Shown: positions 18,578 through 40,513 of the stretch, piece after piece
Position numbering within the stretch: position 1 is the stretch's first letter
How the letters are laid out: each line of letters begins with the position of its first letter
Assembly (NCBI GenBank): GCA_030695415.1
Contig: JAUYQZ010000032.1
Span: 1-64,000 of the forward strand
Length of the DNA: 64,000 nt
Direction of reading: 5' to 3'
Origin: Hylemonella sp.
GTDB taxonomy: Bacteria > Pseudomonadota > Gammaproteobacteria > Burkholderiales > Burkholderiaceae_C
Notes under the pieces: generated by a model
Told to the model about the DNA's origin: nothing
Databases searched by the model: none
What the model saw: only the letters and a program-made list of their open reading frames with translations
Program-made: the position numbers and the translations under genes

Positions 18578-20323
<1,746 letters not shown>

Positions 20324-23807: not shown

Positions 23808-24845
23808 TTAACGATGCTCGGATGGCGTGTTCGGGATGCCCTCGATCGGGCACTCCGGCGTGCCGACCGTGGAGCGTGTGAAGGCCTCGACCTTCTTGCG
23901 CGTGCCCTCGGGGTCGCGGATCCACTCCCCATAGAACTCATAGGGACAGGCGGCCACGCCGGTGTCGCCTTCTCCCGAGTTGATCTTGCCCGTGTAGCCG
24001 CGATGCACCAGCTTGAAGAGGTGGTTCTCGCTCTGCCCGTTCTTGCGGAAGTCGCGGATCAGGCTCTTGGACAGGGCCGCGTACTGCACGCCGTACTCCT
24101 CCTCGCCGCATTCACCCAGGGTGCGGCCATCGAAGCCGATGAGGGCCGAATGCCCGAAGTAGCTGTACACGCCATCCCAGCCGGCCGCGTTGGCCACCGC
24201 CACATAGGTGTTGTTGGCCCAGGCCATGGCCTTGGCCATCAGCACCTGCTGGTCCTTGGCCGGGTACATATAACCCTGGCAGCGCACGATGAGTTCGGCG
24301 CCCTTCATGGCGCAGTCACGCCAGATCTCGGGGTAGTTGCCGTCGTCGCAGATGATGAGACTGACCTTGAGGCCCTTGGGCCCGTCGGAGACGTAGGTGC
24401 AGTTGCCCGGGTACCAGCCCTCGATCGGCACCCAGGGCATGATCTTGCGGTACTTCTGCACGATCTCGCCCTGGTCGTTCATCAGGATCAGCGTGTTGTA
24501 GGGCGCCTTGTTCGGGTGCTCTTCATGCCGCTCGCCGGTCAGCGAGAACACGCCCCAGACCTTGGCCTTGCGGCAGGCCTCGGCGAAGATGGCCGTCTCG
24601 TCGCCGGGCACGGTGGCCGCGGTCTCGTACATCTCCTTGGCGTCGTACATGATGCCGTGCGTGCTGTACTCCGGAAAGATCACCAGGTCCATGCCGGGCA
24701 GGCCCCGCTTCATGCCGATCAGCATGTCGGCGATTTTGCGGGCGTTGGCCAGCACTTCGGCTTTGGTGTGGAGGCGGGGCATCTTGTAGTTCACTACCGC
24801 TACGCCTACGGTGTCGTTGCTGCTGGAAATATCGCCGTGGATCAT
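23808..24845 (-). CDS. amiE: Aliphatic amidase
   Basis: 345-aa nitrilase-superfamily hexameric amidase that hydrolyses short aliphatic amides (acetamide, propionamide) to acid and ammonia. Starts [21 protein letters not shown], nearly the Pseudomonas AmiE N-terminus. The catalytic Glu59, Lys134 and Cys166 ([11 protein letters not shown]) are all in register. The longer frame up to 24989 runs into the repeat region and is not coding. The close relative formamidase AmiF is less likely given the sequence match to AmiE recalled from memory. Confidence 0.93.
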
Positions 24846-24906
24846 TTCTGTTTTCCTTCGGATGTGTTTGTTTCGTTTGGTCGGTTGGTTTAAGAGGGTT
24901 CTTCTT

Positions 24907-25260
24907 CCACCCCCTATCCCCCCCCGCCCCCTTCCCACCCTCGCCAGGGCGGGAAGGGGGAGCCGATTTGATTTCGTCGCGCCGGCCATGCTTCTACGGC
25001 GCTAGCGTCGCGGCAAGCTTCTGCGGGCCAAGATTTTGGGGCTACGGTCGTAGTAAAGGGCTCGATGGCTGGCGCGCAGCTGCCAGCTGGGTGCGCGTAT
25101 ATCCCTACGCGGTCTCTACGACCGCTGGCGTGGAATGCTGGCGTCCAATATGCGGTGGTGACGCTGGCGCCGTAGAAGCCTGTCCATCGACCAACCACCA
25201 AATCGGACTCCCCTTCCCGCCCTGGCGAGGGTGGGAAGGGGCGGGGGGGATAGGAGGTGG
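24907..25260. repeat. Long imperfect inverted repeat (REP/MITE-like) filling the amiE-fmdB gap
   Basis: The 455-bp gap between amiE and fmdB holds no credible gene. Its core is bounded by ~64-bp inverted arms, 24907-24970 and 25195-25260, identical apart from a few substitutions and length changes in C/G runs. Each arm is itself a hairpin (CCTTCCCACCCT / AGGGCGGGAAGG). An inner pair, 24990-25009 and 25160-25179, is also inverted and matches at 19 of 20 bases. No transposase frame is present. The transcript could form a very large stem, which may separate amiE from fmdA expression. Confidence 0.85.
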
Positions 25261-25300: not shown

Positions 25301-25651
25301 TCAGTGACTGATCATCCAAGGCCTCTTCCCCGCAAACGACTTGCTCCCATCCGCCGCCGTCACGGTAGAACCACGTTTGCCGCTGGTAGAGCAACACCCA
25401 CACCCCGACGGATGCTTGAGTCGTCCATACGACCCGTCCCGCGAAGAACGTGGTGCATGCGAAGCCCGCTCATTGGTCTCGTGCGCCGCGCGTGTGCCGC
25501 TGTCCAGGCAGGCCAGGCGCGGCCCGGCCACGAAGACGCGGGTGCTGACGGTGCCGCAGTCCGGACAGTTGCAGGGCTCGTTGCGCTGCGCCAGGCTGCG
25601 CAGGGCCTCGAAACCCCCGCAGTCCGGGCAGTCGTAGTCATAGGTCGGCAT
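25301..25651 (-). CDS. fmdB: FmdB-family zinc-ribbon protein
   Basis: 116 aa from ATG 25651 (MPTYDYDCPDCGGFEALRSL). Two CxxC-type pairs (CPDCGG and CNCPDC) form the FmdB zinc ribbon in the first 35 residues. A second Cys cluster, GCGCCSTSGKRG, lies towards the end. In Methylophilus fmdB is a positive regulator of formamidase expression; the molecular role is not settled. 17 bp after fmdA. Confidence 0.88.
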   Translation of the reverse strand: MPTYDYDCPDCGGFEALRSLAQRNEPCNCPDCGTVSTRVFVAGPRLACLDSGTRAAHETNERASHAPRSSRDGSYGRLKHPSGCGCCSTSGKRGSTVTAADGSKSFAGKRPWMISH

Positions 25652-25668: not shown

Positions 25669-26901
25669 TTACTTCACGTCTTGCGAGATCGGCATCTGGA
25701 TGCTGCCGTCGATCATCTTCACCGGACCGGCGGCCGTGGGATTGATGTCGAAGTCGAAGATCTCGGTCGGCAGCCACAGGGTGGCGCAGGCGTTGGGCAC
25801 GTCCACCACGCCGCTGATGTGGCCCTGCACCGGGGCGGTGCCCAGGATGGAATAGGCCTGCGCGCCGCTGTAGCCGAACTTTTTGAGGTACTCGATGGCG
25901 TTCAGGCAGGCCTGGCGGTAAGCCACGTTGACGTCCAGGTAGTGCTGCTTGCCGGCCTCGTCCACCGAGATGCCTTCGAAGATCAGGTAGTCCTTGTAGT
26001 TGGGCGTGATGGGGCTGGGCTTGAAGATCGGGTTCTTGATGCCGTACTTGGCCATACCGCCCTTGATCAGGCTCACGCGCATGTGCACCCAGCCGGCCAT
26101 CTCGATGGCGCCGCAGAAGGTGATCTCGCCGTCGCCCTGGCTGAAGTGCAGGTCGCCCACGCTCAGGCCCGCGCCGTCCACGTAGACCGGGAAGAACACC
26201 TTGGAGCCGCGCGAGAGGTCCTTGATGTCGCAGTTGCCACCGTGTTCACGCGGGGGCACGGTGCGCGCGCCTTCGGCGGCCACCTTTTTGGCGGCTTCGC
26301 CCGTGAGCTTGCCGAGGTGGGCGGTGGCAGCGAAGGGCGGGTTGGCCAGGCCGGGTACGCGGGTGGGGTCGGTGTCGATCAGTTCCTGCTCGCGCGTGTT
26401 CCAGGCATCGAGCATCTTCTGGTCGGGCAGGCAGCCGATCAGGCCGGGGTGGATCAGGCCGGCGTACTCGACGCCGGGCACGTGGCGGCTCTTGGTGAAC
26501 ATGCCCTTGAAGTCCCAGATGGACTTCTGCGCCAGCGGGAAGTGGTCGGTCAGGAAACCGCCGCCGTTCTTCTTGCTGAAGAAGCCGTTGAAGCCCCAGG
26601 GGCTCTCGTCCTTGGCGCCAATGTCCAGCAGGTCCACCACCAGCAGGTCGCCGGGCTGCGCGCCCTTGACGCCCACCGGGCCGGTCAGGAAGTGCACGAT
26701 GGACAGGTCGATGTCACGCACGTCGTCGGCGCTGTCGTTGTTCTTGATGAAGCCGCCGGTCCAGTCGTAGGTTTCGAGGATGAAGTCCTCGCCGGGGTTG
26801 ACCCAGGCCGCCATGGGGATGTCCGGGTGCCAGCGGTTATGCACCTGCGGGTTGCTGTAGGCGGACTGCTTGAGGTCGACTTTGATGAGGGCTTCGGCCA
26901 T
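25669..26901 (-). CDS. fmdA: Formamidase / acetamidase FmdA
   Basis: 410-aa enzyme of the FmdA_AmdA family, hydrolysing formamide to formate and ammonia. Begins MAEALIKVDLKQSAYSNPQVHNRWH; contains REHGGNCDIKDLSRGSKVFFPV, VGDLHFSQGDGE and GAIEMAGWVHMR, the conserved core. Unrelated to AmiE in fold, so the cluster has two different amidases. 46 bp downstream of urtE, as in fmd clusters where amide transporter and formamidase are linked. Confidence 0.95.
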   Translation of the reverse strand: MAEALIKVDLKQSAYSNPQVHNRWHPDIPMAAWVNPGEDFILETYDWTGGFIKNNDSADDVRDIDLSIVHFLTGPVGVKGAQPGDLLVVDLLDIGAKDESPWGFNGFFSKKNGGGFLTDHFPLAQKSIWDFKGMFTKSRHVPGVEYAGLIHPGLIGCLPDQKMLDAWNTREQELIDTDPTRVPGLANPPFAATAHLGKLTGEAAKKVAAEGARTVPPREHGGNCDIKDLSRGSKVFFPVYVDGAGLSVGDLHFSQGDGEITFCGAIEMAGWVHMRVSLIKGGMAKYGIKNPIFKPSPITPNYKDYLIFEGISVDEAGKQHYLDVNVAYRQACLNAIEYLKKFGYSGAQAYSILGTAPVQGHISGVVDVPNACATLWLPTEIFDFDINPTAAGPVKMIDGSIQMPISQDVK

Positions 26902-26947: not shown

Positions 26948-27637
26948 TCAGACGGAAAGGTAGGACTTGATGCGCTTCACATCGGTCTGGTCGCGCGCGG
27001 TTTCGTGCACCAGGCGACCGCCCTCGATCACGAAGAGGCGATCGGCCACGTCCATGGCGAAGGACAGCACCTGCTCCGAGACGATGATGGTGATCTCGCG
27101 CAGCTTGCGGATCTCGTTGAGCGCCTTGGCAATGTCCTTGATGATCGAAGGCTGGATGCCCTCGGTGGGCTCGTCCAGCAGCAGCACCTTGGGGTTGGTC
27201 ACCAGGGCCCGCGCAATGGCCAACTGCTGCTGCTGCCCGCCTGAGAGGTTGCCGCCCTTGCGCCGGCGCATATCCCAGAGCACGGGGAACAGCGCGTAGA
27301 TCTCTTCCGGGATCTGCTTGTGTTTGGCGTTCTCCAGCCCGGTCTGGATGTTCTCCTCGACGGTGAGCGTCGGGAAGATCATGCGACCCTGGGGCACGTA
27401 GGCGATGCCCTTGGCCACGCGCCGGTAGCTTTCGTCCTTCGAGACGTCCTGACCGTCGACCAGGATCTGCCCGGACTTGAGCGGCAGCACACCCATCAGG
27501 CTCTTGAACAGCGTGGTCTTGCCCATGCCGTTACGGCCCATGATGGCGACCGTCTCGTTCTTGTTGCTTTCGAAGGAGATGCCGTGCAGGGCTTCGCTCT
27601 GGCCGTAGGCCGTGTACATGTCGGTGACTTTCAGCAT
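26948..27637 (-). CDS. urtE: Urea/amide ABC transporter ATP-binding protein UrtE
   Basis: 229-aa LivF-like ATPase. Walker A GRNGMGKTT, signature LSGGQQQQLAIARAL, Walker B VLLLDEPTEGIQP. I chose ATG 27637 (MLKVTDMYTAYGQSEALHG); the frame is open upstream through urtD in another reading frame. EGIQP with a tryptic IVSEQVLSFAMD tail is the UrtE pattern. Last transporter gene. Confidence 0.93.
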   Translation of the reverse strand: MLKVTDMYTAYGQSEALHGISFESNKNETVAIMGRNGMGKTTLFKSLMGVLPLKSGQILVDGQDVSKDESYRRVAKGIAYVPQGRMIFPTLTVEENIQTGLENAKHKQIPEEIYALFPVLWDMRRRKGGNLSGGQQQQLAIARALVTNPKVLLLDEPTEGIQPSIIKDIAKALNEIRKLREITIIVSEQVLSFAMDVADRLFVIEGGRLVHETARDQTDVKRIKSYLSV

Positions 27638-27654
27638 GTCTTGCTCCTGTGGAA

Positions 27655-28398
27655 TCAGTGGCCGAGATAAACGTCGATCACCTTGGGGTCGGCCTGCACC
27701 GTGGCCATGGAGCCCTCGGCCAGGATCTTTCCCTGGTGCATCACGGTGACCTTGTGCGCGATCTGCTTGACGAACTCCATGTCGTGTTCGATCACGATCA
27801 CCGAACGGTTCTTGCAGATGCGCTTGAGCAGGTCGGCGGTGAGCTCGCGCTCGCGTGCGCTCATGCCGGCGATGGGTTCGTCCAGCATCAGCAGCTCGGG
27901 GTCCTGCATCAGCAGCATGCCGATCTCCAGCCACTGCTTCTGGCCGTGCGAGAGCAGGCCGGCCTCCTTCTCCAGGGTGTCGGCCAGGCCGATCTCTTCG
28001 GCCACCACCTGCACCCGGGCCTTGACCTCGTCGGTGCACTTGAAACCCAGCGCACCGAAAACCGAACGTCCCTTGGGGTAGGACACCTCCAGGTTCTGGA
28101 ATACGCTGAGGTTCTCGTAGATGGACGGCGTCTGGAACTTGCGGCCGATGCCGCGGCGCACGCGGATATGCTCATCCAGCTGGGTCAGTTCCTCGTTCTT
28201 GAACTTGATGCTGCCGCTGCTGGCCTTGGTCTTGCCGCAGATCAGGTCCAGCAGCGTGGTCTTGCCCGCGCCGTTGGGGCCGATGATCACGCGCAGCTCG
28301 TTCTTGTCGATGTACAGCGTCAGGTTGTCGATGGCCTTGAATCCGTCGAAGGAGACCGTGAGGTCTTCCACGGCCAGGGCGAAGTCGGTGTTGCTCAT
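27655..28398 (-). CDS. urtD: Urea/amide ABC transporter ATP-binding protein UrtD
   Basis: 247-aa LivG-like ATPase. Walker A GPNGAGKTTLLDLICG, GIGRKFQTPSIYENLSVFQN, signature LSHGQKQWLEIGMLL (SHGQ in place of SGGQ, normal for UrtD), Walker B LLMLDEPIAGMS. Between urtC and urtE with 17-22 bp gaps. Confidence 0.94.
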   Translation of the reverse strand: MSNTDFALAVEDLTVSFDGFKAIDNLTLYIDKNELRVIIGPNGAGKTTLLDLICGKTKASSGSIKFKNEELTQLDEHIRVRRGIGRKFQTPSIYENLSVFQNLEVSYPKGRSVFGALGFKCTDEVKARVQVVAEEIGLADTLEKEAGLLSHGQKQWLEIGMLLMQDPELLMLDEPIAGMSARERELTADLLKRICKNRSVIVIEHDMEFVKQIAHKVTVMHQGKILAEGSMATVQADPKVIDVYLGH

Positions 28399-28420: not shown

Positions 28421-29593
28421 TCAGGCGCTCTGGCTGCTCACGCCGCCAGCCTGGGTGGCTGGCGCATCGGAAGCGGCGTCGGCTGCCACGGCTTTGCGGA
28501 TCGCCAGGCGTTCGGCCTGTTTGCGCTGCCACCAGGGCTTGACCTTCTTCTCCCACACGCCGGCCAGGCCGTCGGGGAAGGCCATGGTCACGCCGATGAA
28601 GAGCGCGGCCATCAGGAAGAGCCACAGGTCGGGCAGGCTTTCAGAGAAGTAGGTCTTGCCGAAGTTCACCAGCAGGGTGCCGTAGACCGCGCCAACCAGG
28701 CTCATGCGTCCGCCCACGGCGGCGTAGATCACCATTTCGATCGAGGGCACGATGCCCACGAAGGAGGGCGACATGAAACCCACCTGCAGCGTGAACAGCG
28801 CGCCGCCGATGCCGGAGAGCGCCGCCGCCAGGCAGAACACGAAGACCTTGAACATGGCCACGTCGTAGCCCGAGAAGCGCACGCGGTCTTCCTTGTCGCG
28901 CATGGCCAGCAGCAGGGTGCCCAGCTTGCTCTTCTGCACCCACAGGCACAGGGTGATGCTGCCCAGCAGGAGGAAGGTGCACAGGTAGTAGAGGAGGTAC
29001 TTGGCGCTGTCGGTGCGCGTGTCCCAGCCCAGCACGGTCTTCAGGTCGGTCATGCCGTTGACCCCGCCGGTGTAGCCCTGCTGGCCGATGATGAGCACCG
29101 TGAGGATCAGCGCCACAGCCTGCGTGATGATGGCAAAGTACACACCGCCCACGCGCCGCTTGAACATGGCGTAACCGATGATGAAGGCCAGCAGGGTGGG
29201 CACCGCCACCACCGCGAACAGCGCGAAGGGCAGGTACTCGAAGGGCTGCCACCAGATGGGCAGCGCCGTGAGCTGGTTCCAGTCCATGAAGTCCGGGATG
29301 CCCGGGGTCGACTGGATCTTGGTGGTGATGGGGTCGCTGGCCTCCAGCTTGAGGAACATGGCCATGGCGTAACCGCCCAGGCCGAAGAACACGCCCTGGC
29401 CCAGGCTCAGCACGCCGCCGTAGCCCCAGAGCATGACCAGCCCCAGCGCGACGAAGCCATAGGTCAGGTACTTGCCCACGAGGTTGAGGCGGAAGATGTC
29501 GAACACCAGCGGAAAGACGACGATCAGCAGCACGGCCAGGATGAGCACGCTGCCCAGCCCCCGTTTGGCGATCCACGCGTTGAATTTGTTCAT
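28421..29593 (-). CDS. urtC: Urea/amide ABC transporter permease UrtC
   Basis: 390-aa LivM-like inner-membrane permease with about ten hydrophobic helices (KYLTYGFVALGLVMLWGYGG, VLSLGQGVFFGLGGYAM). The cytosolic EAA-like loop is near SGIGGALFTLQVGF. The final ~40 residues form a charged, alanine-rich tail. Long antisense frames over this gene reflect codon bias only. Confidence 0.94.
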   Translation of the reverse strand: MNKFNAWIAKRGLGSVLILAVLLIVVFPLVFDIFRLNLVGKYLTYGFVALGLVMLWGYGGVLSLGQGVFFGLGGYAMAMFLKLEASDPITTKIQSTPGIPDFMDWNQLTALPIWWQPFEYLPFALFAVVAVPTLLAFIIGYAMFKRRVGGVYFAIITQAVALILTVLIIGQQGYTGGVNGMTDLKTVLGWDTRTDSAKYLLYYLCTFLLLGSITLCLWVQKSKLGTLLLAMRDKEDRVRFSGYDVAMFKVFVFCLAAALSGIGGALFTLQVGFMSPSFVGIVPSIEMVIYAAVGGRMSLVGAVYGTLLVNFGKTYFSESLPDLWLFLMAALFIGVTMAFPDGLAGVWEKKVKPWWQRKQAERLAIRKAVAADAASDAPATQAGGVSSQSA

Positions 29594-29621: not shown

Positions 29622-30536
29622 TCAGCGACGCACCTTGCTGGCGAACAGGCCTTGCGGGCGGATCATCAGGATCACGACGATGATGGAGAGCGTCAGCACC
29701 TTGGCGTTCGATCCGCTCATGAAGAACTCGCTGATCGATTGCGTCTGGGCGATGCCGAAGGCCGAGGCCACGGTACCCAGCAGGCTGGCGGCGCCGCCGA
29801 AGGTCACAACGAGGAAGGAGTCGACGATGTAGAGCGAGCCGCTGGTCGGACCCGTGGAACCGATGGTGGTGAAGGCCGCGCCCGCCACGCCGGCAATGCC
29901 GCAGCCGATGGCGAAGGTCAGGCGGTCGGTCTTGCTGGTGTTGATGCCGATGGCATTGGCCATGGTGCGGTTGCTGACCGTGGCGCGCACCCGCAGGCCC
30001 CAGCGGCTCTTGTACAGCGCCAGCAGCACACCGCAGGTGACGAAGGTGGTCAGGCCCAGCACGAAGAGGCCGTTGATCGGGATGTCCAGCCCTTCACGCG
30101 GCGACCAGGAACCCATCAGCCATTCGGGCAGCGTGGGGCTGACTTCCTTGGGACCGATGGCGGTGCGAAAGATCTGCTGGATGGCCAGGCTCAGGCCCCA
30201 GGTGGCCAGCAGCGTGTCCAGCGGACGCTTGTAGAGGAAACGGATTAGACCCCACTCCACCAGCCAGCCCGCGATGAAGGCCAGGCAGAAGGCCACCGCG
30301 ATGGCCACCAGGAAGTAATAGGGCATGAGGTTGGGGGCAAACTTCTCCACCAGCGTGGAGAAGAGGAAGACCGTGTAGGCGCCGATGGTCATGAACTCGC
30401 CATGCGCCATGTTGATCACGCCCATCTGGCCGAAGATGATGGCCAGGCCCAGGCCCATGAGCAAAAGGACGGAGAAGAGGCTCAGTCCGGCGAAACCCTG
30501 CATGAGGGTGATGTCAACGATTTCCTTGAATTCCAT
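29622..30536 (-). CDS. urtB: Urea/amide ABC transporter permease UrtB
   Basis: 304-aa LivH-like permease, about eight membrane helices, with GLAIIFGQMGVINMAHGEF near the N-terminus and SFLVVTFGGAASLLGT near the C-terminus, both UrtB hallmarks. This is the short form without the extra N-terminal domain of some UrtB proteins. Confidence 0.94.
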   Translation of the reverse strand: MEFKEIVDITLMQGFAGLSLFSVLLLMGLGLAIIFGQMGVINMAHGEFMTIGAYTVFLFSTLVEKFAPNLMPYYFLVAIAVAFCLAFIAGWLVEWGLIRFLYKRPLDTLLATWGLSLAIQQIFRTAIGPKEVSPTLPEWLMGSWSPREGLDIPINGLFVLGLTTFVTCGVLLALYKSRWGLRVRATVSNRTMANAIGINTSKTDRLTFAIGCGIAGVAGAAFTTIGSTGPTSGSLYIVDSFLVVTFGGAASLLGTVASAFGIAQTQSISEFFMSGSNAKVLTLSIIVVILMIRPQGLFASKVRR

Positions 30537-30623: not shown

Positions 30624-31892
30624 TTACTGGTAGCCCTTCGGGAACGGATCAGGTTCGATCAGATTGGGCGACTCGGCCACCACCTTGAAGGTGCCGTCCT
30701 TGTTACCGATGGCGATGCGCGACTTGCTCCACAGGTGGTGGTTCTGGTGCACCTTGACGTAGCCCTCGGGCGCGGTCTTGAGCTCGATGCCGGGCGAGGC
30801 GGCCACGACCTTGTCCACGTCGAAGCTGCCGGCCTTCTCCACGGCAGCCTTCCACAGCCAGGGACCCAGGTAGCCGGCTTGCGTGACGTCGCCGATCACG
30901 GCGTCCTTGCCGTACTTGGCCTTGAAGGCTGCGACGAACTTCTTGTTGTTCTCGTTGTCCAGCGACTGGAAGTACTTCATCGAGCTGTAGAAGCCGGCGA
31001 AGTTCTCGCCGCCCACGCCCGTCATCTCGTCTTCCGTCACCGACAGCGTCAGCAGGAACTGCTTGTCACCGGTGATGCCCGCGGCCTTGAGCTGCTTGTA
31101 GAAGGCCACGTTGGAGCCGCCCACCACCGCTGCGAAGATGCAGTCTGGCTTGGCCACCTTGATCTTGTTGATCAGGGAGTTGAAGTTGGTGTTGCCCAGC
31201 GGGTAGTACTCTTCGCCCACCACCTTGCCCAGCTTGCCCACGCTCTCGATGTGCTTGCGCGCGATCTTCATCGAGGTGCGCGGCCAGATGTAGTCCGAGC
31301 CGACCAGGAAGTAGGTCTTGGCTTTTTTCTCCTTCGAACCCCAGTCCAGGCCGTAGATGATCTGCTGCGTCGCTTCCTGGCCCGTGTAGATCACGTTCTT
31401 GGACTGCTCCAGGCCTTCGTAGAAGGTCGGGTAGTAGAGCAGGCCGTTCTCTTTCTCGAACACCGGCAACACGGCCTTGCGCGAGGCACTGGTCCAGCAG
31501 CCGAAGACAGCGGCCACGTGGTCGTTGACCAGCAGCTTCTTGGACTTCTCGGCAAAGGTTGGCCAGTCGGAAGCGCCGTCTTCCTTGATCACCTTGATCT
31601 TGCGCCCCAGGATGCCGCCCATGGCATTGATCTGGTCAATCGCCAGCTGCTCGGCCTGGATGGAGCCGGTCTCGGAGATGGCCATGGTGCCGGAGGAGGA
31701 GTGCAGCTGTCCCACGATCACCTCGGTGTCGGTCACGGCCAGCTTGGTCGTGTTGACCTTGGCGGTCGGGAACTGCTGGGCCGCGGCCAGGGCGGGCACA
31801 CCGGCCACGGACAGGGCGCCCATGGCCTGCAGGACCTGGCGGCGCTGCAGACCGCTGGCTAGCGGGTGGGAAGGGGCAGACGGTTTCTTCAT
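30624..31892 (-). CDS. urtA: Urea/amide ABC transporter substrate-binding protein UrtA
   Basis: 422-aa periplasmic Leu/Ile/Val-type binding protein. ATG 31892 gives an export signal with SGLQRRQVLQAMGALSVAG, a Tat-like RR motif, ending near ALAAAQ. Mature part: VGQLHSSSGTMAISE, LYYPTFYEGLEQSKNVIYTGQ, and GSDYIWPRTS, typical of UrtA/FmdD. Substrate may be urea, formamide or both; the neighbouring fmdA and amiE argue for amides as well. An 87-bp gap separates it from urtB. Promoter region shared with the divergent permease-kinase. Confidence 0.93.
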   Translation of the reverse strand: MKKPSAPSHPLASGLQRRQVLQAMGALSVAGVPALAAAQQFPTAKVNTTKLAVTDTEVIVGQLHSSSGTMAISETGSIQAEQLAIDQINAMGGILGRKIKVIKEDGASDWPTFAEKSKKLLVNDHVAAVFGCWTSASRKAVLPVFEKENGLLYYPTFYEGLEQSKNVIYTGQEATQQIIYGLDWGSKEKKAKTYFLVGSDYIWPRTSMKIARKHIESVGKLGKVVGEEYYPLGNTNFNSLINKIKVAKPDCIFAAVVGGSNVAFYKQLKAAGITGDKQFLLTLSVTEDEMTGVGGENFAGFYSSMKYFQSLDNENNKKFVAAFKAKYGKDAVIGDVTQAGYLGPWLWKAAVEKAGSFDVDKVVAASPGIELKTAPEGYVKVHQNHHLWSKSRIAIGNKDGTFKVVAESPNLIEPDPFPKGYQ

Positions 31893-31996
31893 GAGGCACT
31901 CCAGTAAGAAAGAGGGAACCAAGAACACCTGCGGGAGGTGCGGGCAACACCTTGTCACCACGGCCTTGAGATTAGGGAGAGGGGCGCGTACAGCCC

Positions 31997-32014
31997 ATAC
32001 GTCAATCAACGTAT
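31997..32014. promoter_or_regulatory. Dyad operator candidate between urtA and the permease-kinase gene
   Basis: Perfect 6-bp inverted repeat ATACGT-N6-ACGTAT, about midway in the 218-bp divergent intergenic region. The size and spacing suit a LuxR/NarL-type response regulator dimer, and the gene for such a regulator lies at 35472. The TF assignment is inference. Confidence 0.5.
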
Positions 32015-32110
32015 CGCTCGTGTCGACCCGACCGAGAACAGTTCTTGCATGCGCACCTGCATGGGTCCCGGTCTACCCAGAACGGGGCGCCGGGGTTCGA
32101 ACGCACCTTT

Positions 32111-35100
32111 ATGAAACACGCACCACAGAAAATCTTCCGCATCCGCCGCGACTACAACTCCTGGGTGGCCAACGAGACCCTGGAGGACTACGCGCTGCGT
32201 TACACGCCGCACAGCGCGCGCAAGTGGAGCGAGTGGCGGGTGGCCAACACGGCCTTTGGCGGCATGTCTTTCCTGGCGCTGGAGGCCATCGGCGGCGCCA
32301 TCGCGCTGAACTACGGTTTCGAGAACGCGCTGTGGGCCATCCTGGTCATGGGCCTCATCACCTTCCTCACCGGCCTGCCCATTGCCGTCTACGCCGCCCG
32401 TTACGGCCTGGACATGGACCTGCTCACACGCGGCGCGGGTTTCGGCTACCTGGGCTCCACGGTCACCTCGCTGATCTATGCGAGCTTCACCTTCATCTTC
32501 TTTGCGCTGGAGGCGGCCATCATGGCGCTGGGCCTGAAGCTGGTGCTGGACTGGCCGCTGGTCTGGTGTTACGTGCTGTCCTCGCTGGTCATCATTCCTC
32601 TGGTGCTCTACGGCATCACCTTCATCTCGCGCCTGCAGACCTGGACGCAGCCGCTGTGGGTGGTGCTGCTGCTCTGGCCTTTCCTGTGGTTTGCCGTGGC
32701 CCAGCCCGAGCTCTACGCAGAGTTCACCGGCCTGTCCGGCCTGAGCTCGGGCAGCAGCGAGTTCGAACCCCTGATGTTTGGCGCCGCGGCCGCCGTAGCC
32801 TTCGCGCTGGTGGTGCAGATCGGCGAACAAGTGGACTACCTGCGCTTCATGCCCGAGCGCACCGCCGCCAACCGCTGGCGTTGGTGGGCCTGCGTGCTGG
32901 CCGCCGGGCCGGGCTGGATCGTCCCGGGCATGCTCAAGATGCTGGGCGGCGCCTTCCTGGCCTTCGTCGCGCTGCAGTTCGGCGCAATGCCGGGGCAGGC
33001 GGCCGATCCCACGCAGATGTACCTGGTCGGCTACATGCAGTCGCTCGACAGCCCGGTGCTGGCCCTGTGGCTCACCGTGATCTTCGTGGTGATCTCGCAG
33101 GTCAAGATCAACGTGACCAACGCCTACGCCGGCTCCCTGGCCTGGAGCAACTTCTTCGCGCGGCTCACGCGCAGCCACCCGGGGCGGGTGGTCTGGCTGG
33201 TCTTCAACGTCATCATCGCCATGCTGCTCATGACCCTGGGCGTCTTCGGTGCGCTGGAAAAGGTGCTCGGCCTCTACGCCAACGTGGCCATCGCCTGGGT
33301 CGGCGCCCTGGTGGCGGACCTGGTCATCAGCAAGCCCCTGGGCCTGAGCCCCAAAGGGGTGGAGTTCCGCCGCGCCTACCTGTACGACCTCAACCCCGTG
33401 GGCCTGGGCGCCATGGGCCTGGCCGTGGTGCTTTCGGTCACGGCCCATACCGGTTTGCTGGGAGAGTACGCAGCCGCCTTCTCCCCCTTCATCGCACTGT
33501 TCACCGCCATGCTCGCCGCGCCGCTGCTGGCCTGGGCCACGCGCGGGCGCTACTACCTGGCGCGGCACGACGCCTCGCCCTGGAAGCCCGGCGAGGTGGT
33601 GCGCTGCAGCGTCTGCGAAAACCAGTTTGAAAGCGCCGACATGGCCAGCTGCCCGGCCTATGGCGCGCCGATCTGCTCGCTGTGCTGCTCGCTCGAATCC
33701 CGCTGCCACGACCGCTGCAAGAGCCAGTCGCGCGCAGCCGACCAGCTGCGCGGGGCCCTGGCGGCCTTTCTGCCCGCCAGCCTGAACAAGAGCTACAACT
33801 TCCGGGTCGCGCAGTACTTCACGGTCTTCCTGGGCCTGTGCGCGCTGCTGGCCTTCGTGCTGGGCGTGGTCTACGTGCAGGAGAGTCTGCAGACCCCGGC
33901 CGAGCAGTTGCGCGACCCCTTCATCAAGGCCTTCTCCCTGCTGGCCCTGCTGGCGGCCGTGTGCGCCTGGTGGGTGGTGCTGGCCAACGAAAGCCGGCGC
34001 ATGGGGCACGACGAGTCCGAGCGCCAGACCCAGCTGCTGCAGAGGGAGATCGACGCCCACCAGCGCACCGACGAGGCCCTGCAGGGCGCCAAGGAGGTGG
34101 CCGAATCCGCCAGCCAGGCCAAGACGCGTTACGTGGCCGGCATGACGCACGAATTGCGCACGCCGCTCAACAGTATCCTGGGCTATGCACAGATCCTGCT
34201 GCGCGGCAAGGACCTGCCGGGCAGCGCGCGCGAGGCCGTCACCACCATCCAGCAAAGCGGCCAGCACATGCACGCGCTGATCGACGGCCTGCTTGATCTG
34301 GCCCGCATCGAGGCCGGCCGCCTGCGCCTGGACCCCGCGCCCCTGCCCTTCCCCGATTTCCTCTCCGAGCTCGCGCGCATGGTGCAGCCGCAGGCCGAGG
34401 GCAAGGGCCTGAGCTTCCGGCTGGAAACACAGGGCCGCGTTCCGGCCTGGGTGCAGGCCGACGCCAAGCGCCTGCGCCAGATCCTTATCAACCTGTTGGC
34501 CAACGCCGTGCGCTTCACCGACCGTGGCGGCATCGTCTTTCGCGTGGACTGCCGGCACGAGGTGGTGCGCTTTGAAGTGCAGGACACGGGCATCGGCATC
34601 GCACCGCAGGACCAGGAGCGCATCTTCCAGCCCTTCGAGCGCGGCAGCGCGGGCCGGCGCACCAGCGAGTCAGGCACGGGCCTGGGCCTGACCATCACGC
34701 ACCTGCTGACCGAACTCATGGGGGGAGACCTCAGCCTGCGCAGCGCGGTGGGCCAGGGCAGTACTTTCAGCGTGCGCCTCTACCTGCGCGAGATCGAGCC
34801 CCCCGCCGTGCCCGCGGTGCGACACCTGCGCCCCATCGTTGGCTATCTCGCACCGCGGCGCACCTTGCTGGTGGTGGATGACCAGCCCATCCAGCGCCAG
34901 CTGCTGGCCAGCCTGCTGCTGCCCCTGGGTTTCATCGTGCGCGAAGCGGCCAGCGGCCGCGAAGCGCTGGAGATCCTGCAGCAGCAGCAGCCCGACGCCG
35001 TGCTGCTCGACATCAACATGGACGACCTCAATGGCTGGCAGACCGCGCAGCTCATCCGCAGCAACGGCAAGGCTACCCTGCCCATCATCTTCGTGTCGGC

Positions 35101-35485
35101 CGACCCTTTCGAGAATCGCCCCGAGCTGCTGGCCGCCGTGGGCGCACAGGGCTTCGTGAGCAAACCCGTGATCGAGTCCGAGCTGCTGGACCTGCTGGCC
35201 CGCGTGCTGCAACTGGAATGGGTGCACGAGACGCAGCGCCTGGCCGCCTCCCCGACCACCCCCGACGGTGCCACCGCCCTGCCCCTGCCGGGCGAACTGC
35301 GCCAGCGTCTGATTGCCCTGGCGCGCCTGGGCAATGCCAGCGGCCTGCGCAGCCTGCTGCGCAACAGCGCCCAGGAGGCGCCCGCCATTGCCGACGTGCT
35401 GCAGGCCCTGGTGGTGCACGTGGACCGTTTCGACTTCAACACCCTGATTGCCCGCCTGAAAGAAACCGACGATGAATCCGCCTGA
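32111..35485 (+). CDS. NCS1 permease fused to hybrid histidine kinase
   Basis: 1124 aa from ATG 32111. Residues 1-490: a 12-helix permease domain of the nucleobase:cation symporter-1 (cytosine/purine/hydantoin) type. About 499-540: a Cys-rich module with CSVC, CSLCC and further Cys. Two more helices lie at about 565-635, then a coiled coil. HisKA has MTHELRTPLN with His680. The HATPase domain shows NLLANAVRF, DTGIGIAP and GTGLGLTITH. A receiver domain follows with Asp967 (VLLDINMDD) and a ~100-residue helical tail. Probably senses a nitrogen compound by binding or transporting it. The downstream regulator overlaps its end by 14 bp. Comparable in plan to CbrA, which uses an SSS-type transporter instead. 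Confidence 0.9.
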   Translation: MKHAPQKIFRIRRDYNSWVANETLEDYALRYTPHSARKWSEWRVANTAFGGMSFLALEAIGGAIALNYGFENALWAILVMGLITFLTGLPIAVYAARYGLDMDLLTRGAGFGYLGSTVTSLIYASFTFIFFALEAAIMALGLKLVLDWPLVWCYVLSSLVIIPLVLYGITFISRLQTWTQPLWVVLLLWPFLWFAVAQPELYAEFTGLSGLSSGSSEFEPLMFGAAAAVAFALVVQIGEQVDYLRFMPERTAANRWRWWACVLAAGPGWIVPGMLKMLGGAFLAFVALQFGAMPGQAADPTQMYLVGYMQSLDSPVLALWLTVIFVVISQVKINVTNAYAGSLAWSNFFARLTRSHPGRVVWLVFNVIIAMLLMTLGVFGALEKVLGLYANVAIAWVGALVADLVISKPLGLSPKGVEFRRAYLYDLNPVGLGAMGLAVVLSVTAHTGLLGEYAAAFSPFIALFTAMLAAPLLAWATRGRYYLARHDASPWKPGEVVRCSVCENQFESADMASCPAYGAPICSLCCSLESRCHDRCKSQSRAADQLRGALAAFLPASLNKSYNFRVAQYFTVFLGLCALLAFVLGVVYVQESLQTPAEQLRDPFIKAFSLLALLAAVCAWWVVLANESRRMGHDESERQTQLLQREIDAHQRTDEALQGAKEVAESASQAKTRYVAGMTHELRTPLNSILGYAQILLRGKDLPGSAREAVTTIQQSGQHMHALIDGLLDLARIEAGRLRLDPAPLPFPDFLSELARMVQPQAEGKGLSFRLETQGRVPAWVQADAKRLRQILINLLANAVRFTDRGGIVFRVDCRHEVVRFEVQDTGIGIAPQDQERIFQPFERGSAGRRTSESGTGLGLTITHLLTELMGGDLSLRSAVGQGSTFSVRLYLREIEPPAVPAVRHLRPIVGYLAPRRTLLVVDDQPIQRQLLASLLLPLGFIVREAASGREALEILQQQQPDAVLLDINMDDLNGWQTAQLIRSNGKATLPIIFVSADPFENRPELLAAVGAQGFVSKPVIESELLDLLARVLQLEWVHETQRLAASPTTPDGATALPLPGELRQRLIALARLGNASGLRSLLRNSAQEAPAIADVLQALVVHVDRFDFNTLIARLKETDDESA

Positions 35486-36386
35486 GCCCCTGCCCCCGTC
35501 CACCGTCTCCAGCGTGGTGCTGGTGGTGGACGACGCGCCCGAAACCCTGCGCATGCTGTGCGACGCGCTGGCCATCGAGGGCTACACCGTGCTGGTGGCA
35601 CGTGATGCCATCGAGGCCATCGAGCGCTTCGAGATGGCCGTGCCCGACGCCGTGCTGCTCGACGCCATCATGCCCGGCGACAACGGCTTCACCCTCTGCC
35701 GCCGCCTCAAGGGCATGCCCTCCTGGGCCCACGTGCCCGTGATCTTCATGACCGGCCTGGCCGAGACCGAGCAGATCGTCGAGGGCTTCGCCAGTGGCGG
35801 CGTGGACTACGTGGTCAAGCCGCTGAAGATTCCCGAGGTGCTGGCGCGCCTGGCCACCCACCTGCGCAACGCCCACGTGAGCCGCCTGGCGCGCGAGGCC
35901 GTGGACGTGGCGGGCCTGGGTGTGCTGCTGCTGGACACGCAGGGCCGCATCGCCTGGCGTTCGCCGCAGGCCATGCGCTGGCTGGGCCAGGCCCTGGGCC
36001 CGGAGCAGGACGATGCCGCCCAGCGCCTGTGGCTGCAGCAGGTGGTGCAGCAGGGCGAGACCCTGGTCCCGCTGCCCGACGGCAGCCAGCTGCAGGCGCG
36101 CCACCTGGGCCAGGGCGGCCCGGGCGAGATCATGGTGCTGCTGCGACGTGTGGTCCCGGCCACCGACCCGGCGCAGCGCCGCCTCACCGTGGCCGCGCTC
36201 ACCCCGCGCGAGACCGAGGTGCTCTCCTGGCTCGCCAAGGGCAAGACCAACCGCGACATCGGCGACATCCTGGGCATGAGCCCGCGCACCGTGAACAAGC
36301 ACCTGGAACACATCTTCGAGAAGCTGGGGGTGGAGACACGCACGGCGGCGGCAGCGATTGCGAGCAGCTTGTTGCAGGAAGGTTAG
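35472..36386 (+). CDS. Response regulator with LuxR-type DNA-binding domain
   Basis: 304 aa. Receiver: acidic pair Asp20/Asp21, phospho-acceptor Asp64 (VLLDAIMPG), Lys116 (VVKPLK). The middle ~110 residues (VDVAGLGVLLLDTQGRIAWRS) look like a PAS-like module. The C-terminal LuxR helix-turn-helix spans about 241-295 (LTPRETEVLSWLAKGKTNRDI). Overlaps the permease-kinase gene, so it is its cognate partner. The likely target is the divergent urt-fmd operon. Confidence 0.92.
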   Translation: MNPPEPLPPSTVSSVVLVVDDAPETLRMLCDALAIEGYTVLVARDAIEAIERFEMAVPDAVLLDAIMPGDNGFTLCRRLKGMPSWAHVPVIFMTGLAETEQIVEGFASGGVDYVVKPLKIPEVLARLATHLRNAHVSRLAREAVDVAGLGVLLLDTQGRIAWRSPQAMRWLGQALGPEQDDAAQRLWLQQVVQQGETLVPLPDGSQLQARHLGQGGPGEIMVLLRRVVPATDPAQRRLTVAALTPRETEVLSWLAKGKTNRDIGDILGMSPRTVNKHLEHIFEKLGVETRTAAAAIASSLLQEG

Positions 36387-36911: not shown

Positions 36912-37122
36912 CCCAAGCCCAAGCCCGCCCACAGTTCAGCGGCTCAGTCGTTCTCGTGTGCTGCGCCACGTGGCAGACCCTCTTTGAGACGGCGTCCTCG
37001 ACGGTTGCAGCCCCGGACAGTCAAGCTTCTCCAAGGTGGGACGAAAAGCGACCGTACGCTGGCGCACGGTGGAGAGGAGGGTTTTGCCGCAAGCTTGCGT
37101 TTTCACTTCTGCCGGGGATCCC

Positions 37123-37665
37123 ATGTCCAAGAAATCCAGCCTCACCGAAACCAAGCTCATGCGCCGCGAAGCACGAAAGCACCTGGAGCAGGGTGCAGTG
37201 ACGTCCAGCTATGAGGCCGATCGCACCGAGGTCATCCGCATGTTGAACCAGGCGCTGGCGACCGAACTGGTTTGTGTGCTGCGGTACCGCAGCCACCATT
37301 TCATGGCACGCGGGATCCATTCGCGCACGGTGGGCGCCGAATTCCTGGCGCACGCCAACGAGGAGCTGGGTCACGCGGACAGCCTGGCCACGCGCATCGT
37401 GCAGTTGGGCGGCGTGCCAGATTTCTCACCCCAGAGTCTGGAGGGTCGCAGCCATGCCGAGTACACCACCGGAACCACGCTGACCGGGATGATCCGCGAA
37501 AACCTGGTCGCAGAGCGTATCGCCATACAGGCTTACCGCGAGGGCATCCGGTTTCTGGGCACCCAGGACTCCACCACCAGCGACCTGCTCAAGCAGATTC
37601 TTTCTATGGAGGAAGAGCACGCTGATGACCTGGCCAGTCTGCTGAGCGGAATGCCCGAGGATTGA
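37123..37665 (+). CDS. Ferritin-like (bacterioferritin/Dps-type) diiron protein
   Basis: 180 aa from ATG 37123; the frame is open upstream to 37036 but those residues look non-coding. A four-helix bundle with ferroxidase ligands is evident: LATELVCVLRYRSHHF, ANEELGHADSLATRIVQLGG, ENLVAERIAIQAYREG and SMEEEHADDL. The ExxH pattern in helices 2 and 4 is complete. Fits bacterioferritin-like iron storage or peroxide protection; no haem-ligand Met could be assigned with confidence. Confidence 0.82.
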   Translation: MSKKSSLTETKLMRREARKHLEQGAVTSSYEADRTEVIRMLNQALATELVCVLRYRSHHFMARGIHSRTVGAEFLAHANEELGHADSLATRIVQLGGVPDFSPQSLEGRSHAEYTTGTTLTGMIRENLVAERIAIQAYREGIRFLGTQDSTTSDLLKQILSMEEEHADDLASLLSGMPED

Positions 37666-37951
37666 ACACTTCATCCGCACGCTCCCGTCCACGGAGCATC
37701 TGCCCGGGTGCCTCATGGCCAGGCGGGTGGGCGGCCTGCGCCAGGATTCCATCGGTGCCATCAAGGCATTTGTGCTGTGTGGAGGGGGTTGATCTGGCGG
37801 GGCAGTTCCATGACACGCGCTGGTTAGACGAAATCATTCGTCCAGATCGGCTCGGTGACGCTGGGCCAGAGCAAGTCCCCCTTTTTGCGGCGGCTTGCCA
37901 GCCCGCCCGTGCAACATGGAGTGTCATCCGGCCAAGGCACAATGTTGCCGT

Positions 37952-39445
37952 ATGCACCATCTACCGCCCCTGATCGCCCCGCAGGAGTTCACCGACGCGG
38001 CCGCCGCGCTGGCGCATGTGCGCCACATCTATGACAGCAGCATCGCCCATCTTCGCGCGGGCATGCAGCGTTTCGTGGCCGGCGACGACAGCGCTGGCCC
38101 GGTGCGCGCCTTCTACCCCCTGGTGCGCATCCGGACCGAGACCGTGCTGCGCCAGCCGGCCGGTGCGCAGGAGCGTCTGAGCTACGGCTTCGTGGCGGGG
38201 CCGGGCGTGTTCGAGACCACGCTCACGCGGCCCGACCTGTTCCACCACTATTACCTGGAGCAGTTCCGCCTGCTGCTGCTCAACCACGGCGCGGTGCTGG
38301 AGGTGACCACCAGCAAGCAGCCCATCCCCGTGCATTTCTCCTTTGCCGAGAACGAGCACATCGAAGGCAACCTCAGCGCCGAGCGCCGGCAGATGATGCG
38401 CGACTGGTTCGACCTGCCCGACCTGGGCGCCATGGACGACGGCATCGCCAACGGCACCTACGAGCCGCAGCCCGGCCGGCCCTTCCCCCTGTCGCTGTTC
38501 ACCGCGCAGCGCATGGACTATTCCCTGCACCGCCTGCGCCACTACACCGGTACGGTGCCCGAGCACTTCCAGAACTTCGTGCTCTTCACCAACTACCAGT
38601 TCTACATCGACGAGTTCATCCGCCTGGGCCATGAAGTCATGCAGGACGCCAGGAGCGATTACGCCGCTTTCATCGAGCCCGGTAACGTGGTGACCCGTCG
38701 TGCGGGAGAGGCCGCGCAGCCCGGCGATGCGCTGGGCAAGGCGCCGCCCAGATTGCCGCAGATGCCGGCCTACCATCTGGTGCGCCCCGACGGCAACGGC
38801 ATCACCATGGTCAACATCGGCGTGGGCCCGGCCAACGCCAAGAACATCACCGACCACATCGCCGTGCTGCGCCCGCACGCCTGGATCATGCTGGGCCACT
38901 GCGCCGGCCTGCGCAACGGCCAGCAGCTGGGCGACTACGTGCTGGCCCACGCCTATGTGCGCGAGGACCATGTGCTGGACGAAGAGCTGCCGCTGTGGGT
39001 GCCCATCCCCGCGCTGGCCGAAGTGCAGGTGGCGCTGGAACAGGCCGTGGCCGACGTGACGCAGATGCGCGGAGCCGAACTCAAGCAGATCATGCGCACC
39101 GGCACCGTGGCCACCACCGACAATCGCAACTGGGAACTGCTGCCCGACAACCAGCCCCAGCGGCGTTTCAGCCAGAGCCGCGCCGTGGCGCTGGACATGG
39201 AGTCCGCCACCATCGCCGCCAACGGCTTCCGCTTCCGCGTGCCCTACGGCACCCTGCTGTGCGTGAGCGACAAGCCCCTGCACGGCGAGATCAAACTGCC
39301 CGGCATGGCGAACCACTTCTACCGCGAGCGGGTGGACCAGCATCTGCGCATCGGCATGCGCGCGCTGGAGCTGCTGCGCGAAGGCGGCATCAACCAGCTG
39401 CACAGCCGCAAGCTACGCAGTTTTGCGGAAGTGGCGTTCCAGTAA
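37952..39445 (+). CDS. amn: AMP nucleosidase
   Basis: 497-aa enzyme splitting AMP into adenine and ribose 5-phosphate. ATG 37952 (MHHLPPLIAPQEFTD) is chosen; the upstream in-frame start at 37895 adds 19 unlikely residues. An N-terminal AMN-specific domain covers about 1-190 (PVHFSFAENEHIEGNL). The C-terminal phosphorylase-like domain includes ITMVNIGVGPANAKNITDH, WIMLGHCAGLR and ALDMESATIAANGFRF. Preceded by 286 bp in which I see no gene. Confidence 0.95.
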   Translation: MHHLPPLIAPQEFTDAAAALAHVRHIYDSSIAHLRAGMQRFVAGDDSAGPVRAFYPLVRIRTETVLRQPAGAQERLSYGFVAGPGVFETTLTRPDLFHHYYLEQFRLLLLNHGAVLEVTTSKQPIPVHFSFAENEHIEGNLSAERRQMMRDWFDLPDLGAMDDGIANGTYEPQPGRPFPLSLFTAQRMDYSLHRLRHYTGTVPEHFQNFVLFTNYQFYIDEFIRLGHEVMQDARSDYAAFIEPGNVVTRRAGEAAQPGDALGKAPPRLPQMPAYHLVRPDGNGITMVNIGVGPANAKNITDHIAVLRPHAWIMLGHCAGLRNGQQLGDYVLAHAYVREDHVLDEELPLWVPIPALAEVQVALEQAVADVTQMRGAELKQIMRTGTVATTDNRNWELLPDNQPQRRFSQSRAVALDMESATIAANGFRFRVPYGTLLCVSDKPLHGEIKLPGMANHFYRERVDQHLRIGMRALELLREGGINQLHSRKLRSFAEVAFQ

Positions 39446-39658: not shown

Positions 39659-40513
39659 ATGGAATTCTGGCACCTTACATCGCAGGGGATCGAGGCCGGC
39701 CTGGCCGGCGTGCTGGGACTGCTGATCGGCAGTTTCCTCAATGTCGTGATCTACCGCCTGCCCAAGATCATGGAACGGCAGTGGGCTGCCGAGTGCGCCG
39801 AGCTGGCCGGCAAGGAGCCGCCCCCTGCGGAAACCTTCAACCTGCTGCTGCCGCGCTCGCGTTGCCAGAAGTGCGGCCACCAGATTCGCTGGTACGAGAA
39901 CATCCCGGTGCTGAGCTACCTCTTCCTGCGGGGCAAGTGCTCGGCCTGCGGCACGCCGATCAGCCTGCGCTATCCCCTGGTCGAACTGACGACCGCCGCC
40001 CTGTTCGCCTACGCCGTCTGGCGCTGGGGCGCGACACCGGCCGGTCTGGCCTGGTGTGGCTTTGCCGCGGCGATCGTGGCCCTGGCCCTGATCGACTGGG
40101 ACACCACGCTGCTGCCCGACAGCATCACCCAGCCGCTGCTGTGGGCCGGCCTGATCGTCGCGGCCCTGAAATGGAACAACGTGCCCCTGGCGGACGCTCT
40201 CTGGGGCGCCGTGGGCGGCTACATGTCCTTGTGGCTGGTGTACTGGAGCTTCAAGCTGGTCACCGGCAAGGAAGGCATGGGCTTTGGCGATTTCAAGCTC
40301 TATGCCGCCCTGGGCGCCTGGTTCGGCTGGACCGCGCTGGTGCCCATCATCCTGATGGCCTCGGTGATCGGCGCCATCATCGGCATCGCCATGAAGTTCA
40401 GCAGCGGTTTGCGCGAAGGCGGCTATGTGCCTTTCGGCCCCTTCCTGGCCGCCGCCGGGCTGACCGCCATGATCTTCGGGCCGCAAAGCATCCTGCGTTT
40501 CGTCGGGTTGTAA
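39659..40513 (+). CDS. pilD: Prepilin leader peptidase / N-methyltransferase PilD
   Basis: 284-aa inner-membrane bifunctional enzyme that cleaves and N-methylates type IV prepilins. The cytosolic domain between helices 1 and 2 has the tetracysteine zinc motif CQKCG...CSACG. Catalytic aspartates lie in ALIDWDTTLLPD and GMGFGDFKLYAALG (GxGD). About eight helices. First gene of pilD-coaE-zapD-yacG. Preceded by 213 bp with no visible gene, so pilC is not immediately upstream as is common. Confidence 0.95.
   Translation: MEFWHLTSQGIEAGLAGVLGLLIGSFLNVVIYRLPKIMERQWAAECAELAGKEPPPAETFNLLLPRSRCQKCGHQIRWYENIPVLSYLFLRGKCSACGTPISLRYPLVELTTAALFAYAVWRWGATPAGLAWCGFAAAIVALALIDWDTTLLPDSITQPLLWAGLIVAALKWNNVPLADALWGAVGGYMSLWLVYWSFKLVTGKEGMGFGDFKLYAALGAWFGWTALVPIILMASVIGAIIGIAMKFSSGLREGGYVPFGPFLAAAGLTAMIFGPQSILRFVGL

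Follow-up and report, generated by a model that had tools for sequence, protein, structure and literature searches.

Transporter-type domains have been described as the input of several sensor kinases. As far as the accessible parts of these reports extend, CrbS/CrbR (MxtR/ErdR) combines a transporter-hybrid kinase, with an SSS/SLC5 sensor and a STAC linker, and a LuxR-family regulator in acetate utilization, and an inverted repeat is needed for induction (PMC5715377). CbrA is a transporter-kinase with the ligand pocket in its permease, an SLC5 sensor for histidine with a STAC-PAS linker (PMC13022988); the RpuS/R sensor, also SLC5/STAC, controls a separate gene, that of a pyruvate symporter (PMC9100948); and KsAmt5 reuses a nitrogen transporter fold as kinase input, though an Amt and not a LeuT-type fold (PMC5764959, PMC8534201). 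Here we analyzed a stretch of 64,000 nucleotides from Hylemonella sp. (contig JAUYQZ010000032.1, positions 1 to 64,000; the window), in which a single gene at 32111..35485 (+) joins an apparently NCS1-like permease, through an eight-cysteine module and two further helices, to a hybrid histidine kinase. The gene is followed by that of a LuxR-type regulator and faces a divergent urt-fmd-amiE operon. We consider it probable that the product is a hybrid-kinase transceptor that responds to small amides or urea and drives its operon through a conserved TACG-N8-CGTA dyad. Its mode of action appears to be like that of CrbS/CrbR and CbrA, but the sensor family, judged from sequence, is new and unrelated to SLC5. 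The CrbS linker contains PAS as well, and CbrA is not known to have a receiver and acts with an NtrC-type partner. Among the matches listed in searches of the open-licence literature, which left subscription papers uncovered, there was no description of an NCS1-kinase receptor.

The frame is stop-free from 32111 to 35485 on the plus strand and encodes 1124 residues. The initial annotation, made from the letters alone, had read it as a permease, cysteine module, helices, HisKA, HATPase and receiver in one protein, and translation, Pfam, hydropathy, AlphaFold2 (AF2) modeling and alignment all agree with this order, which is as follows:

32228..33556 (+), NCS1-like 12-helix permease domain, residues ~40-482 (hydropathy, AF2 helices, hhalign, Foldseek)
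33605..33718 (+), eight-cysteine module, residues 499-536 (8/8 Cys in 83/83 fusions)
33797..33997 (+), two further transmembrane helices, residues ~563-629 (hydropathy; AF2 helices 564-590 and 597-626, with a low predicted local distance difference test score, pLDDT, there)
34118..34318 (+), HisKA dimerization/phosphoacceptor domain, His680 (Pfam E=7e-20; His in 83/83)
34460..34786 (+), HATPase_c domain (Pfam E=2.2e-28)
34868..35194 (+), receiver domain, Asp967 (Pfam E=8.1e-24; Asp in 81/83, gap in 2)
35198..35482 (+), C-terminal helical-looking tail after the receiver (similar in the relatives compared, nine tails in the list; no Pfam match)

Hydropathy segments and the helices of the AF2 model fit 12 helices to the residues up to ~479, and hydropathy places the two extra helices at ~563-597 and 600-629. 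In the C-terminal half, Pfam assigns residues 670-736 to HisKA, 784-892 to HATPase and 920-1028 to REC; His680 lies within HELRTPL and Asp967 within LLDINM, so that Pfam and alignment together find the HisKA histidine, the HATPase and the receiver aspartate of a hybrid histidine kinase. The tail has a pattern near LARIGYVRGI...FDL..L in common with its relatives. Four urease-linked fusions of the window's family (L109, L111, L112 and L114) carry added residues between permease and cysteine module, and L114 has 1282 residues.

The assignment of the permease to NCS1, proposed initially, is supported by profile and fold comparison. Pfam did not recover it: PF02133 gave no match to the window permease even at E<=10, and among 23 family members it matches only the standalone protein L120. 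With 33% identity (E 2.6e-39), L120 can be aligned to the window sensor over residues 21-494 and is thus a bridge between the fusion permease and NCS1. We then call the domain NCS1-like because of this bridging protein and of profile-profile and fold comparison. A profile of the fusions (83 sequences, 61 after filtering; number of effective sequences, 2.3) was compared by hhalign with a profile of 25 NCS1 proteins, from which the short piece L137 was dropped, and with one of 20 SSS proteins, the sole rival profile. The match to NCS1 had Prob 99.5 (E 1.9e-22, 406 columns) and that to SSS Prob 1.5, while the NCS1 and SSS profiles matched each other at Prob 93.9. With SSS as the only rival compared, the permease thus lies nearer to NCS1 than to SSS, the family of the CbrA sensor, as the initial annotation had supposed, and an SSS/CbrA-type sensor is ruled out by these values. 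The SSS domain PF00474 had no Pfam match in the fusion, and for residues 494-637 the Pfam scan lists no STAC, although the presence of the STAC model in that Pfam copy went unchecked. AF2 models were made for residues 1-646 (pLDDT 64; predicted template modeling score, pTM, 0.61) and 1-490 (pLDDT 72.6, pTM 0.77), and for both Foldseek ranks 1-5 are CodB and Mhp1 entries, with SSS and Nramp entries below; direct sequence searches of the PDB with the fusion gave nothing useful. Together, these comparisons indicate a divergent NCS1-like domain that is too far removed for Pfam's NCS1 model.

The 12-helix fold is shared with CodB and Mhp1, and an alignment to the CodB site residues, taken from the available part of PMC9379551, shows what was kept and what was changed. 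The CodB Arg216-Tyr285 pair is retained as R245-Y339 in 83/83 fusions. In contrast to CodB and Mhp1, the fusion has a kinase attached, Lys332-Ile333 at the Na2 site and an altered aromatic sandwich. The CodB Na2 threonines Thr278/Thr279 in transmembrane helix 8 (TM8) are replaced by Lys332 (83/83) and Ile333 (82/83, one Val); none of 25 NCS1 proteins has Lys at CodB position 278, which is T, G, A or S in 23. At the sandwich, Trp108 corresponds to Phe130 in 77/83 fusions (Leu in 6), and Phe204, Gln105 and Ala207 correspond to Leu233, Thr127 and Gln236, each in 83/83. Given these changes, Lys332 in place of a Na+-site ligand suggests loss of Na+ coupling, and the altered sandwich would form a pocket for a ligand smaller than a nucleobase. 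When loci were grouped as fmd type or urease/urea type according to the genes around them, residue 398 (TM10) separated the sensors best, being Gly/Ala in 62/62 of the fmd type and Met/Thr/Cys/Ser in 16/17 of the urease/urea type, with one Gly. Since a quick tree needs at least three changes between fmd and urease contexts, the two are not one split; its long branches leave the details unsure.

The eight cysteines (C499, 502, 514, 522, 525, 526, 532 and 536) are each present in 83/83 aligned fusions with the spacing C-x2-C-x11-C-x7-C-x2-CC-x5-C-x3-C. Because the N terminus has nine K/R and the helix number is even, the module is predicted to be cytosolic; possibly, it binds two zinc ions. Module plus helices occur in 53/398 genomes, 52 of these being sensor-bearing genomes. 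Standalone relatives of the permease give further information about this unit. In Methylovirgula, the fusion faces fmdA-fmdB, tblastn found no urt gene at the fusion locus, and a 549-residue standalone permease (L296 11673-13322; listed as a hypothetical protein, with 53% identity to the window domain) lies behind the regulator in place of the ATP-binding cassette (ABC) importer and ends right after a complete eight-cysteine module. In Acinetobacter ursingii, a standalone permease adjoins urease genes, also in place of the ABC importer. On another Acinetobacter contig (L292 10159-16391), the gene opposite the fusion kinase encodes a standalone paralogue of the kinase's own permease, a near relative of the A. 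ursingii one, and the dyad lies between the two genes. Both Acinetobacter proteins retain 4/8 cysteines. Lys332 is present in all three standalone permeases; at residue 398, the Methylovirgula protein, encoded beside fmdA, has Gly, and the two from Acinetobacter have Val. These relatives suggest that the domain can move such substrates, that sensing and transport may coexist, and that the cysteine module may belong to the permease unit. The module and Lys332 weigh less as receptor marks because the Methylovirgula standalone permease has both. The L292 record is filed as a 328 kb phage; its gene content looks bacterial.

The genes around the fusion, and the operator candidate between them, are:

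35472..36386 (+), response regulator, REC plus LuxR/GerE helix-turn-helix (Pfam; found downstream in relatives)
31998..32013 (no strand), operator candidate TACGTCAATCAACGTA (TACG-N8-CGTA dyad) in the divergent promoter region, sole exact site in the window
30624..31892 (-), urtA, solute-binding protein, ATG at 31892 (TIGR03407; start read from sequence)
29622..30536 (-), urtB (Pfam PF02653; between urtA and urtC)
28421..29593 (-), urtC (TIGR03408)
27655..28398 (-), urtD (TIGR03411)
26948..27643 (-), urtE, part scanned, open frame to 28039 (TIGR03410)
25669..26901 (-), fmdA formamidase (NF045496, 761 bits, cut-off 500)
25301..25651 (-), fmdB-like zinc-ribbon protein, starts MPTYDYDCPDC (tblastn, 47.5% to the pBN4 zinc-ribbon protein)
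23808..24989 (-), amiE aliphatic amidase, profile match from frame residue 49 (NF009802, 717 bits, cut-off 427)
18578..20323 (-), ureC, urease alpha subunit, farther along the same strand (TIGR01792)

The regulator gene starts 14 base pairs (bp) before the end of the kinase stop codon (overlap 35472-35485), and both this overlap and the divergent order of urt, fmd, amiE and, farther on, ure genes are as initially annotated. The facing genes combine an FmdA equivalog with an amide/urea ABC transporter (NF045496, TIGR03407, TIGR03408, TIGR03410 and TIGR03411, all over cut-off), the composition of an fmd operon. The pBN4 zinc-ribbon protein is itself 63% identical to an FmdB-family-annotated protein of pBVIE02.

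Linkage of relatives to such genes, on which the initial annotation had staked its reading, was found at all usable loci of the genomes drawn. The sensor is present in 53/398 Pseudomonadota genomes (the window's own included; G236 has a 54-residue piece only), with Curvibacter and other Comamonadaceae closest by sequence (L011, 94% identical over the sensor part). Of 57 loci fetched from this genome draw, 54 were usable after L120, with its distant standalone permease, and L085 and L119, at contig ends, were dropped, and all 54 have urt, fmdA or ureC within 12 kilobases (kb) of the fusion: 46 have at least three urt genes, 37 have fmdA and 12 have ureC. A LuxR-type regulator passes the cut-off in 49/54; L069, L072 and L073 have a shorter match, and L102 and L118 are the sole two left without one. 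Conversely, 39/40 genomes with FmdA (E<=1e-120) have the fusion, the exception being G114 (Fisher 5e-41, kinship ignored). Chance adjacency of the fusion and urt/fmd/ure genes is ruled out by the 54/54 linkage together with this reverse association. The UrtA of fmd clusters forms its own group, with 26 listed proteins 70-100% identical to the window's; other UrtA among those listed, some in the same genomes, are 34-45% identical.

The sensor also matches 532 plasmid records, 342 of them from Klebsiella and 307 typed as conjugative; 512 match over 80% or more of the query length, and a small number are partial or standalone relatives. In Klebsiella/Raoultella plasmid records, with fusion and urtABCDE (e.g. 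L033, NZ_CP103698.1, 8897-18369), an AmiF-type formamidase occupies the place of FmdA. The two enzymes have no family match in common, and their folds are presumably unrelated. A different enzyme with the same reaction in the same operon place makes formamide hydrolysis the constant and points to formamide. On these plasmids, a gene with 29% identity to FmdA also occurs on the other side of the kinase, at a distance of ~12 kb. The layout recurs in Paraburkholderia pBN4, Burkholderia vietnamiensis pBVIE02, Chelatococcus, Azospirillum oryzae and Methylobacterium currus. The family exceeds the window-type cluster, including urease-linked branches and members beside a standalone paralogue of their own permease. 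Three close relatives of the window (L011 17754-21197, L013 17021-20464 and L016 16840-20283) have a second, urease-branch fusion paralogue ~7-8 kb downstream, which was not found in the window, and in L011 a helix-turn-helix gene and an AbiEii-like toxin gene lie between the two fusions. In the deep-branch loci L102 (5615-9425) and L118 (5521-9425), the fusion gene is followed by one for a REC-HATPase protein, in which HisKA was recognized as well in L118, and fmdA lies downstream.

That the kinase would switch the facing operon, an inference of the initial annotation, gains support from a conserved operator-like dyad before that operon. LuxR-type regulators bind inverted repeats. CrbR, in the part of the report available, needs one for induction (PMC5715377). 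In the 64-kb window, exact TACG-N8-CGTA occurs once, against 0.14 expected. We examined 60 urtA-kinase regions, namely the window, 35 loci of the genome draw, 21 further relatives and three plasmids, and 53/60 have the exact dyad between the two genes. The best four-base dyad in five shuffled sets reached 9 regions, and in 200 mono-shuffle runs TACG-N8-CGTA was present in 0.46 regions on average, with a maximum of 3. The dyad was discovered in the same 60 regions as this first count; the scans of relocated genes, urtA upstream regions, Acinetobacter, further loci and whole genomes are outside tests. Where fmdA lies apart (L091, L094 and L097), the dyad precedes fmdA, and where urtA is 2-7 kb from the kinase (L106, L108, L110 and L113), it precedes urtA. 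From these positions, the dyad tracks the target genes and not just the kinase. Overall, it is upstream of urtA or fmdA in 56/63 of the loci that carry fmdA or an fmd-type urtA; in L085, which belongs to the other loci and is truncated by a contig end, it stands before the kinase.

Further scans gave a similar picture. Upstream regions of urtA in fusion-less genomes have the dyad in 0/20 cases, all of them ordinary-type urtA, as fmd-type urtA without the fusion was not found for a control. The ordinary urtA regions of fusion-bearing genomes have it in 3/18 (G225 and G019, with urease-linked fusions, and G174, which we take for chance). Among further loci outside the original set, the kinase divergent region has the dyad in 8/9, of which Raoultella repeats Klebsiella. 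In both Azospirillum oryzae and Methylovirgula, an aliphatic amidase gene that stands detached is preceded, at 130-142 bp, by a second copy; a second exact dyad on the Acinetobacter contig L292, at 16749 inside a hydrolase gene, is probably chance. A variant, TACGCC-N4-GGCGTA, was suggested by those genomes of the window's family in which the fusion is urease-linked, and a whole-genome search of six such genomes found 6 perfect sites in five of them, 5/6 being 184-237 bp before a urtA match; two of these were known beforehand and three are new. The operator claim rests on exact sites, because with 2 mismatches the window has 5 matches against 5.36 expected, not above chance. We claim no wider regulon, because sites with <=2 mismatches on both strands of the window's own genome (41) are rarer than those of a reversed control pattern (100).

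Within the divergent region, a sigma-70 scan of 31850-32160 found none, and a loose sigma-54-like pattern had scattered matches in divergent regions and none in that of the window. Terminator-like matches in 31850-32160 number 2, against 0.4 expected; one hairpin, 31925-31941 (-), lies between the dyad and the urtA start and could be either chance or a leader element. Beyond the regulator, the window encodes a ferritin-like protein (37036-37665), AMP nucleosidase (37895-39445) and a type IV prepilin peptidase (39659-40513), with no evident tie to the system.

We propose that an external small amide or urea binds the central site of the permease; in the formamidase-linked subtype, the ligand would most likely be formamide or another short-chain amide. 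The resulting conformational change may be passed by the cytosolic eight-cysteine module and the two helices to the HisKA/HATPase core, which would autophosphorylate at His680 and hand the phosphate to Asp967, from where the co-encoded REC-LuxR regulator would receive it. Pfam recognized no HPt domain in the fusion, so phosphate may reach the regulator from Asp967 or, alternatively, directly from His680, with the receiver as a brake. The regulator would bind TACG-N8-CGTA in the divergent promoter and activate, rather than repress, urtABCDE-fmdA-fmdB-amiE, and the cell would then import and hydrolyze the amide. The same scheme may hold for urea in the urease-linked branches.

Several observations weigh against this reading. 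The pocket changes and Lys332 are found in the standalone permeases as well and are not receptor marks by themselves, and both AF2 models are only moderately confident, with TM-scores to NCS1 entries of 0.43-0.69. The deep branch formed by L102 and L118 has permease, cysteine module, HisKA and HATPase, without a receiver by Pfam and without a LuxR partner, and its regulator is not obvious. Exact dyads are absent from 7/63 loci with fmdA or fmd-type urtA (L086 and L089 have a one-mismatch form) and from the region upstream of urtA/fmdA in 11/17 other loci (6/17 have it). They are also absent in Mitsuaria, where the fusion faces urease, from the second fmd-type urtA of G028 (L290), from the G111 urtA on a separate contig (L233), where it follows fmdA and fmdB-like genes, and from the fmdA of the fusion-less G114 (L291). 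In Tistrella, fusion and dyad are present, but urt, fmdA and ureC are all absent within 7 kb. Finally, the genomes are related, so the counts given throughout are not independent events.

Other explanations place the signal elsewhere. The permease domain could be a co-sensor of the state of a partner transporter (UrtABCDE or a standalone permease), or of flux, instead of a ligand binder. Partner transporters are indeed usually encoded next door, and the kinase faces (Acinetobacter) or precedes (Methylovirgula) a standalone paralogue of its own permease; however, the partners are of unrelated types, mostly ABC but NCS1-like in Acinetobacter and Methylovirgula, while the sensor stays constant, which makes a fixed contact, and with it this explanation, unlikely. 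It is very unlikely, in our view, that the permease is mainly an anchor or a working transporter, and that the eight-cysteine module (by zinc or redox) or the extra helices read the signal. While the invariance of all eight cysteines in 83/83 fusions would suit such a role, the complete module of the Methylovirgula standalone permease is not peculiar to signaling, and the split of fmd and urease types at residue 398, which the standalone proteins follow, is expected of a ligand-specificity site.

The nature of the ligand can also be questioned. The initial annotation had proposed a urea- or amide-like compound and named allantoin, hydantoin, cytosine and formamide as candidates. A ring compound (cytosine, allantoin or hydantoin) or a general nitrogen-status cue, with urt/fmd as mere downstream targets, would be in keeping with the CodB and Mhp1 fold family and with the hydantoinase-like genes seen beyond the regulator in Shinella, but the NCS1 aromatic sandwich is altered (Phe130, Leu233, Thr127 and Gln236) and the linked enzymes, by their family names, act on formamide, short amides or urea, so that we regard this alternative as quite unlikely. 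The pocket residues, partner enzymes and urea-type relatives make formamide, short-chain amides or urea better candidates than cytosine, allantoin or hydantoin, and it is this part of the initial proposal that we retain for the transceptor.

A receptor for small amides or urea would fill a gap in the literature on formamide use. In the accessible parts of these reports, the fmd genes of Methylophilus methylotrophus are induced by formamide and urea (PMC10781810), and a putative positive regulator but no sensor kinase is named for the fmdCABDEF cluster; P. veronii Yu15, a formamide-using strain, carries an amiE-fmdA-fmdB-urtABCDE cluster for which the authors suggest formamide uptake (PMC13209695); and, for Ectopseudomonas, a hybrid kinase and a LuxR-type regulator are reported next to a second urtABCDE operon, without comment on the sensor (PMC13296017). 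As far as these portions go, this literature gives inducers, at most a putative regulator, and no receptor, and the fusion is a candidate receptor with its regulator and DNA site.

More broadly, the fusion would add a second LeuT-fold family to the transporter-kinase receptors, making permease signaling comparable between independent inventions, and suggests a rule for annotation, namely that amide-type and urea-type "urt" operons be separated. The receptor is, moreover, carried on many plasmids. More tentatively, and with somewhat less than even confidence, we suggest that these proteins represent a new family of NCS1-type transceptors, widespread in Pseudomonadota, in which a permease branch for the smallest amides, made sodium-free by a Lys, is connected to a kinase by a cysteine module that probably holds two zinc ions, residue 398 chooses between amide and urea, and one operator code (TACG-N8-CGTA) allows the same device to be redirected, both among formamide, aliphatic amides and urea and among ABC and NCS1-like importers.

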